A stretch of 64,000 nt of DNA from Chloroflexota bacterium (GTDB lineage: Bacteria; Chloroflexota; Anaerolineae; UBA4142): assembly GCA_016219275.1 (NCBI GenBank), contig JACRBM010000071.1:1-64000 (forward strand), read 5' to 3'. The notes under the pieces are model-generated. The model was not told where the DNA came from. It saw only the letters and a list, made by a program, of their open reading frames with translations, and searched no databases. Numbering within the stretch: position 1 is the first letter of the stretch; each line of letters starts with the position of its first letter. Below are positions 9,347 to 10,492 of the stretch, in pieces. A program made the position numbers and the translations under genes.

Positions 9347-10174
9347 ATGGTTATCAAATCGGTTGCGATTTCAGAAAACGAAACGACGCCGGAGTGGTAC
9401 ACGCCGGTGACGAAAGAGTTGCTCAAAGAAATCACGCGGCGAATCGTGAAAGAGTGTGCGCCGGAGCGCGTGATTCTTTTCGGCTCGTATGCGTACGGCG
9501 AGCCGACGATTCACAGCGACGTGGATTTGTTGGTGGTCTCGAACAAGATGCGAAATAAAAGTGTGTTTGTGCGCGACCGGCGTGTTAGCGATATTGCTCG
9601 CGCGGCAATTCCTTCCGGACAGATTCGCGGAATGGACATCCTTGTACGCTCGCCGGCAGAATTACGTTATCGTCTAAAAATTGGCGATCCCTTTTTCCGT
9701 GAAGTAACTCTGAAAGGAACGGTGCTATATCGGCGGCGTGGTTCGCGCTATCGCTTTGATGCCAGAGAATGGAGGAATCGTATGCCGGAACCGGTATTGG
9801 TTGCCGAGTGGATTCAGAAAGGCGAAGACGATTATGACGCGGCACAGACCCTTTTGCGGCAACGCAAGCGCCCCATGCCGGCAATGGTTTGCTATCATTG
9901 CCAGCAATCCGCCGAAAAATATTTGAAAGCGTTCTTGTTACAACACAATGTCCACTTTGAGCGGACACACGAACTTGGCGAATTGAACGATTTGTGTGTT
10001 GCGGTGGACGGCACATTTCAATTCATCACCGATTGGCTAAAGTTGCTCAACCCCTACGCGGTTGAAACACGTTATCCCGGTCGTGTCATTGAAATCACCG
10101 AAGCGCGTGAGGCAGTTGCAACGGCAAAGCAAATTCGCAAGTTTGTGCGTGCGAAACTGGGAGTGGGAAAGTAG
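9347..10174 (+). CDS. Nucleotidyltransferase (MNT) fused to HEPN domain
   Basis: The 275-residue product joins two domains that are usually separate genes. Residues 30 to about 130 form a minimal nucleotidyltransferase with the catalytic pattern LFGSYAYGEPTIHSDVDLLV (Gly-Ser, then two aspartates). The C-terminal HEPN domain starts at about residue 146 and contains ADP-ribosylglycohydrolase-unrelated HEPN helices, EWIQKGEDDYDAAQTL and YHCQQSAEKYLKAFLL. MNT-HEPN pairs commonly act as toxin-antitoxin modules in which MNT modifies the HEPN RNase. An in-frame ATG at 9782, at the domain boundary and 6 bases after GGAGG, could allow separate production of HEPN alone. The start at 9347 was chosen as the first ATG after the repeat. 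Confidence 0.88.
   Translation: MVIKSVAISENETTPEWYTPVTKELLKEITRRIVKECAPERVILFGSYAYGEPTIHSDVDLLVVSNKMRNKSVFVRDRRVSDIARAAIPSGQIRGMDILVRSPAELRYRLKIGDPFFREVTLKGTVLYRRRGSRYRFDAREWRNRMPEPVLVAEWIQKGEDDYDAAQTLLRQRKRPMPAMVCYHCQQSAEKYLKAFLLQHNVHFERTHELGELNDLCVAVDGTFQFITDWLKLLNPYAVETRYPGRVIEITEAREAVATAKQIRKFVRAKLGVGK
9771..9784 (+). promoter_or_regulatory. Internal ribosome-binding site and start for the HEPN domain
   Basis: GGAGG at 9771-9775 lies 6 bases before an in-frame ATG (9782) exactly at the MNT/HEPN junction. It could direct a 130-residue HEPN-only product, or be a relic of the former gene boundary. Confidence 0.55.
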
Positions 10175-10225
10175 TCAGAATTCAGAATCCAGAATTCAGT
10201 ATTCAGTATTCTTGCTCCTGAATTC
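10175..10225. repeat. Heptamer repeat (TCAGAAT/TCAGTAT) with inverted copy
   Basis: Five direct heptamers (two TCAGAAT, one CCAGAAT, two TCAGTAT) begin at 10175 and are followed by an inverted GAATTCTGGATTC segment. The tract abuts the beginning of the CopG-antitoxin remnant. Confidence 0.85.
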
Positions 10226-10492
10226 TGGATTCCACAACGCGATCCCACTCCCGAAGAATTTACTAGCATCGAACAAGCCGCCGAATTCTGGGAAACGCAT
10301 GATTTGACCGATTACGAAGATGTCTGGCACGAAGTAGATTTCAAAGTCAATTTGAAACACAAACCAGGACTCAAGGTAGCGCTGGATCCTCAAATTGCCA
10401 ACGAGTTTACCAAGCGCGCACGCGCAAAAAGAGTACGTGTTGACACGCTCGTAAATCGTGCACCCAAGGATTACCTTAGCCGCGCGGCATGA
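10214..10492 (+). pseudogene. CopG-type antitoxin gene lacking its 5' end
   Basis: The frame reads through an antitoxin-like sequence, including PTPEEFTSIEQAAEFWETHD and LTDYEDVWHEVDFKVNLK, with a C-terminal ribbon-helix-helix-like part (LDPQIANEFTKRARAKRV). This matches the CopG_antitoxin family found next to BrnT-like toxins. No ATG or GTG is available upstream in frame: the coding frame runs directly into the heptamer repeat at 10175-10225. The only in-frame start is a TTG at 10304, which would drop the conserved segment before it. No toxin gene is adjacent. I read it as a truncated remnant, although use of the TTG cannot be excluded. Confidence 0.7.

Follow-up and report, generated by a model that had tools for sequence, protein, structure and literature searches.

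A fused MNT-HEPN gene of a Chloroflexota bacterium with a candidate internal start at the domain boundary

In this study we describe a bacterial gene in which the MNT and HEPN domains share one reading frame and in which a possible second translation start lies between them. The gene is found in a 64,000-nucleotide stretch of a Chloroflexota genome (GCA_016219275.1, contig JACRBM010000071.1, positions 1 to 64,000), hereafter called the window. A single open frame of 275 aa runs on the + strand from an ATG at 9347 to a TAG stop at 10174, without any stop between the two domains, and its first ATG stands where the proteins of the syntenic orthologues L018 and L019 have their first Met. The N-terminal half matches the Pfam family PF01909 (NTP_transf_2, MNT) at residues 27-82 (9425-9592, + strand; 40.8 bits, cut-off 21) and the C-terminal half matches the HEPN family PF05168 at residues 153-268 (78 bits, cut-off 22), which confirms the original prediction, made from the letters alone, of both domains in one frame. 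That prediction had also placed a GGAGG and an ATG at the junction (9771-9784), and both are there on the + strand: the Shine-Dalgarno sequence GGAGG at 9771-9775, a spacer of 6 nt (AATCGT) and an in-frame ATG at 9782-9784, 435 nt or 145 codons past the first ATG. They stand where stand-alone HEPN proteins begin. The HEPN frame (9782-10174, + strand) would give a protein of 130 aa if begun at this ATG. Immediately before it lies a linker of 17 codons (9731-9781, + strand) that is absent from split relatives at the same locus, as seen from locus comparison and alignment.

Upstream of the fused gene lies tsaD (PF00814), and downstream a small CopG-type remnant is followed by a gene with a methylguanine methyltransferase DNA-binding domain (PF01035). 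The CopG frame (10175-10492; CopG_antitoxin, PF12441, 34.6 bits) has no ATG at its head, and its N-terminal stretch runs into a palindromic repeat that follows the fusion; it is probably a broken orphan antitoxin. The repeat itself, at 10176-10232 directly after the fused gene, is AT-rich and consists of CAGAATTCAGAATCCAGAATTCAG and an inverted copy. A 20-mer of it is also present between tsaD and the MNT gene in L019 (1961-1980), and it looks like a dispersed intergenic element. We found no sign of a phage origin in viral contigs, no plasmid record that P0001 covers to 80%, and among known defence systems only weak PADLOC matches to the candidates PDC-S09/PDC-M05A on the MNT half. A promoter scan directly upstream of 9347 gave nothing convincing.

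HEPN/MNT modules have been divided into classes. In Class I the MNT protein adds AMP to a tyrosine of HEPN and thereby silences it, and Class II retains the MNT motif and the tyrosine without the RX4HXY motif; in the available text of that 2020 study, it was yet to be demonstrated that Class II HEPNs form a toxin-antitoxin system, and the authors call for validation (PMC7641770). The window gene resembles Class II in pairing a PF01909 MNT (40.8 bits) with a PF05168 HEPN (78 bits), in its GSX10DXD motif, and in a tyrosine without RX4HXY. The MNT half keeps G46 S47, D58 and D60, all invariant alignment columns, and a third Asp, D97, beyond the PF01909 match. In the HEPN half the tyrosine stands in RYPG (242-245) and is found in 47/47 split HEPNs, and there is no His five residues after R242. 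The Class II pairs described in the available text (PMC7641770) are two genes, whereas here we find one gene with a start signal inside; with a single frame and no stop between the domains, it is a fused variant rather than a plain Class II member. The Type VII pair HepT/MntA (SO_3166/SO_3165) is alike in the upstream position of MNT, the overlap in split form and GSX10DXD, but in the parts of PMC4621449 and PMC7641770 that we draw on it consists of separate genes with a HEPN of another family that carries RX4HXY. Membership of this Class I type was rejected, as RX4HXY is absent from the window gene and NF047752 gave 25.4 bits against a cut-off of 60.

Both domains are intact by sequence. Among 25 columns conserved in at least 75% of 47 split HEPNs (the first of which, set by script, is uninformative) the window HEPN departs only at A159 (G) and D209 (E), and it keeps Q187, E190, K191, K194, H208, R242, Y243 and P244. 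A structure model of the fusion (mean pLDDT 90.7, pTM 0.62, domain packing unsure) drops in confidence to ~60 at residues 141-150, that is at the linker and the internal Met; as modelled, the protein is two firm domains loosely joined at the internal start. It might be argued that the HEPN half is no toxin at all but the substrate-binding or regulatory part of a domesticated nucleotidyltransferase, as in kanamycin nucleotidyltransferase. Over its whole length the model matches ANT(4')-IIb (4ebk; Z 10.9, 6.4 A, 218 residues) and 1kny (Z 10.4, 7.6 A, 224 residues), with Z values of ~10 and an rmsd of 6-8 A for a model of pTM 0.62, and fused HEPNs have been viewed as mostly inactive in the available text of a published survey (PMC3710099). 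However, the single domains match stand-alone proteins at far lower rmsd, the HEPN alone 1ufb (Z 18.6, 1.7 A, 118 residues; 2hsb with Z 18.2) and the MNT alone the MNT antitoxin 8xeo (Z 10.7, 2.6 A). The conserved residues of split HEPNs are retained save for the two noted above, and aminoglycoside families all remain below cut-off: only ANT_9 matched, with 13.5 bits against 340, which speaks against membership of a curated aminoglycoside nucleotidyltransferase (KNTase/ANT) family. We consider a domesticated enzyme improbable.

The relatives were sampled from 20 genomes of the order, 18 of which had a match, and from 15 loci in named genomes. In these the module is mostly two genes. Across the loci examined, 60 of 66 first junctions are split and 6 are fused, six second pieces of broken HEPNs having been set aside from this count, which agrees with the earlier statement that toxin and antitoxin domains are usually separate genes. 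HEPN lies in the +1 frame at 55 of the 60 split junctions. Its start ATG could be placed for 53 of these 55, and in 53/53 it is inside the MNT gene, with an overlap of 8-143 nt (median 17). Overlapping MNT and HEPN genes are also found in the Shewanella pair (PMC4621449) and in the Legionella pair (PMC11586414), according to the portions of these papers available to us.

The same locus can be compared directly in other genomes. L018 and L019 adjoin tsaD on its downstream side just like the window gene, and in L018 the same methyltransferase-type gene follows. Identity to the window proteins is 61-63% for their MNTs and 77-82% for their TsaDs. Both have kept MNT; the L018 HEPN begins in the +1 frame and lacks its central part, and in L019 nearly all of HEPN is gone. 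In L018, L019 and L024 the HEPN ATG lies across Tyr-Glu codons, and the matching bases of the window, aligned by eye (9729-9731, + strand), read ATC. The window HEPN start is found 53 nt downstream of this old start position, in an inserted or swapped stretch, and is therefore in the MNT frame. The same comparison can be made at a second locus, flanked by two peptidase genes which we take from their sequence to be M42-type, where the module is split in L106 and fused in L097; by eye, L097 still has the old ATG, and a new start stands 41 nt further downstream, also in the MNT frame. Hence at two loci extra sequence in the overlap region sets the fused form apart from a split relative. The fused gene has very probably been derived from a split pair. 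The idea of a recent gene fusion is thus well supported for the tsaD locus, where the nearest MNTs lie behind the same tsaD with HEPN remnants in another frame. That the gene 'keeps' an internal start calls for correction: a start signal is present at the junction, but the old start has become ATC and the present one lies 53 nt downstream, and a start retained in place from the split gene was accordingly rejected for this locus. We judged an assembly slip joining two genes to be unlikely, because a linker of 17 codons lies at the join and because L097 and L106 provide a second comparison of fused with split. The linker is not covered by any repeat that would indicate a local duplication, and in 14 family genomes it matched only itself.

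Fused genes are rare. The matches in 9/396 class genomes (E<=1e-40) contain 6 open fusions, and in a phylum sample of 400 genomes (E<=1e-45) the window gene was the only match; four fused genes of another family were found in 392 genomes and two of a third family in 298. These two further MNT-HEPN fusion families (L081, L087, L072, L080, L082, L084) are ~28-35% like the window MNT half. A single clade of the six closest fused genes was rejected on MNT (p-AU 2.7e-6, 59 of 73 rows kept) and on the joined domains (p-AU 6e-50, 27 rows), while HEPN alone is compatible with it (p 0.097, 53 of 55 rows). One fusion shared by L097 and L098 gave p 0.21 on the joined domains.

In the MNT tree the window gene groups at 100/100 with L018, L019 and L024, all of split or split-derived layout. 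Its HEPN does not readily join L024 (p-AU 0.073) or L024 with L037 (p-AU 0.028), a hint that this half may have been swapped in from elsewhere. The fused gene might accordingly be a chimera, formed when the HEPN of another pair, with its upstream stretch and RBS, came to lie in frame behind the resident MNT, the resident HEPN having already been lost. The large deletions of HEPN in the syntenic L018 and L019 would fit such an origin. On the other hand the rejection is only borderline, on ~130 columns, and no donor appeared: the linker search gave nothing but itself, and the closest HEPN from 396 class genomes (E<=1e-37) reaches 54% identity. We regard this origin as falling just short of even odds. 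It concerns where the gene came from and can be compatible with either reading of the internal start discussed below.

How unusual is the internal start? The 46 window ORFs, chosen greedily and mechanically for length and not curated as genes, hold 287 internal in-frame ATGs. Exactly one of these, ATG 9782, has a 5-base Shine-Dalgarno match (GGAGG, AGGAG or GAGGT, 4-10 nt upstream of the ATG), and 7/287 have a 4-base match. Near their own starts, 12/46 of these ORFs have a 5-base and 27/46 a 4-base match, so that such signals are used in the window but are not universal. Since there is no 16S gene in this genome assembly, the 16S tail was assumed for the pairing scores; on that basis the internal site reaches -9.3 kcal/mol compared to -4.8 for the gene's own ATG, and 0/205 other stretches of the fused gene match its score. 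Shuffling of synonymous codons reaches it in 3.4% of cases (p 0.034), which makes the site moderately unusual. There was no signal of mRNA structure hiding either of the two starts (z -0.39 and -0.24).

Other fused genes have similar signals in part. The close relatives L015, L016, L097 and L098 have an ATG at the HEPN start. L014 carries AAG at this position, with a GTG behind AAGGAG five codons further downstream. Two genes of family B, L082 (AAGGAGG) and L084 (GGAG), retain both an ATG and a Shine-Dalgarno sequence; in the same family the position reads GTG in L072 and TTC in L080. In L081 (524-1396) the HEPN boundary has a GTG in frame behind AGGAGGTG, an eight-base Shine-Dalgarno match. 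The ATGs of L098 and L087 follow weak Shine-Dalgarno matches. Loss of the site in relatives, named beforehand as what would speak against the original prediction, is therefore mixed: ATG is present in 7/11 other fused genes, including the two with weak signals, and is replaced by GTG (L081, L072), AAG (L014) or TTC (L080) in the others.

We compared a boundary zone, the 12 codons that precede the conserved Trp of HEPN, with the expectation from zones elsewhere in these genes. A start codon scoring -6 or better was found in this zone in 8/12 fused genes against 0.70 expected, in all but L098, L072, L080 and L087; at a cut of -8 it was 5/12 against 0.00, and for ATG alone 6/12 against 0.29. Leaving out the window gene, which had prompted the test, gives 7/11, and both the zone and the cut-offs were chosen when some fused genes had already been seen. 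As the 12 genes belong to five groups of related genes, with one success or more in each, they do not amount to 12 independent trials. Fisher's combination of the shuffle p values gives 1.6e-4 for the six close fusions, a figure overstated by relatedness, and 8e-4 with one gene per group if L016 is chosen, which would weaken with L015 instead.

Whether such sites are in use is a different matter. One possibility is that they are relics of the start once used by the separate HEPN gene and are now decaying, so that essentially one fused product is made. ATG has been lost in L014, L080 and L072 and the signals of L098 and L087 are weak, as described above. Moreover, the fused sites look inherited, given that 44 ATG starts of split HEPNs have a median score of -6.2, and the synonymous-shuffle p values are modest (21% of shuffles reach the score in L097, 42% in L098). 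Against decay, L082 and L084 (65% identical) have kept GGA and ATG in an otherwise diverged linker and L097 and L098 their ATG at ~54% identity. The internal site also outscores the gene's own start in the window gene and in L014-L016, and in the window it does not stand at the old start position. We see a relic as the chief alternative to a start in use, a serious possibility somewhat on the doubtful side. For the internal start being in use the balance, judged from sequence, seems about even. Dual products, the fusion and free HEPN, appear plausible because most other fused genes carry similar start signals at the boundary. That repeated MNT-HEPN fusions in the order and class keep or regain an RBS at the HEPN start, giving a self-neutralising fusion along with free toxin, and hence a gene-within-a-gene toxin-antitoxin arrangement with the toxin as the internal product, is a more tentative proposal.

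Which half might be harmful? In 20 genomes (G000-G019) we counted 73 places. Both halves are intact at 38; an intact MNT is accompanied by a broken or partial HEPN at 17 and by no HEPN at 12; at three there is too little room; HEPN without MNT occurs at one, and a partial MNT with intact HEPN at two, one of which (L022) is at a contig end. Damage to HEPN with intact MNT thus stands at 29 against 2 for the reverse. The 29 include distant or fused forms that the search covered in part, and frame errors of draft genomes may add to the bias. With only MNTs at least 55% like a query it is 18 (11 broken or partial and 7 absent) against 2. HEPN being lost far more often than MNT fits a costly HEPN, and we think it fairly probable that HEPN is the harmful partner. 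The bias might be a natural record of toxin loss with the antitoxin kept in Class II modules. A further five HEPN/MNT loci of this class are found in the window's own genome (G000), on C50, C59, C74, C77 and C61, and the HEPNs on C77 and C61 are frame-broken.

Our main reading, to which we give a probability of about 0.5, is that a Class II HEPN/MNT module has become fused and is predicted to make the fusion together with some free HEPN. Ribosomes starting at 9347 would make the MNT-HEPN chain, in which MNT may hold HEPN in check in cis by binding, perhaps also by AMP added to the conserved Tyr243. Initiation at 9782 would yield some free HEPN of 130 aa, the likely toxic partner, and the fusion might neutralise it in trans. 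The relative use of the two starts would then take the place of the ratio formerly set by two overlapping genes.

MNT-HEPN fusion as an architecture is already known: Table 1 of Anantharaman et al. 2013 lists MNT-HEPN(-T) fusions, with the same PF05168 HEPN and MNT as in the window gene (PMC3710099). In this survey HEPNs fused to MNTs typically lack the predicted RNase residues, whereas the window HEPN keeps the residues of its split relatives; the available text of the survey does not mention an internal start in these fusions. EzeT likewise joins an N-terminal antitoxin to a C-terminal toxin, is thought to come from a two-gene operon and is a cis-antitoxin fusion, but its toxin is an unrelated zeta-type kinase and no internal start is mentioned in the part of the paper available to us (PMC4826407). 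RpnL/RpnS provide a parallel for the start, with a full-length product and a C-terminal product from an internal start; in the available account the short product is the antitoxin, while here it would be the toxin if made, and the proteins are unrelated (PMC10327210). The putative internal RBS and ATG of such an arrangement are present in the window gene and appear unusual. Rpn homology was rejected, as Pfam gives only nucleotidyltransferase families and HEPN. Within the literature searched, we found no internal start described in MNT-HEPN fusions. As far as our searches go, three things are new: the internal start, the finding that it recurs in independent fusions, and the comparison of fused with split forms at the same loci.

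In conclusion, the tsaD locus and the M42-peptidase locus each offer a fused and a split module in the same genomic position. Should free HEPN be produced, the dose of toxin would be set by two start strengths on one message, and the antitoxin would be tied to part of the toxin, the opposite of what Rpn genes do. Free HEPN would also offer a handle on Class II HEPN/MNT modules as candidate toxin-antitoxin systems.
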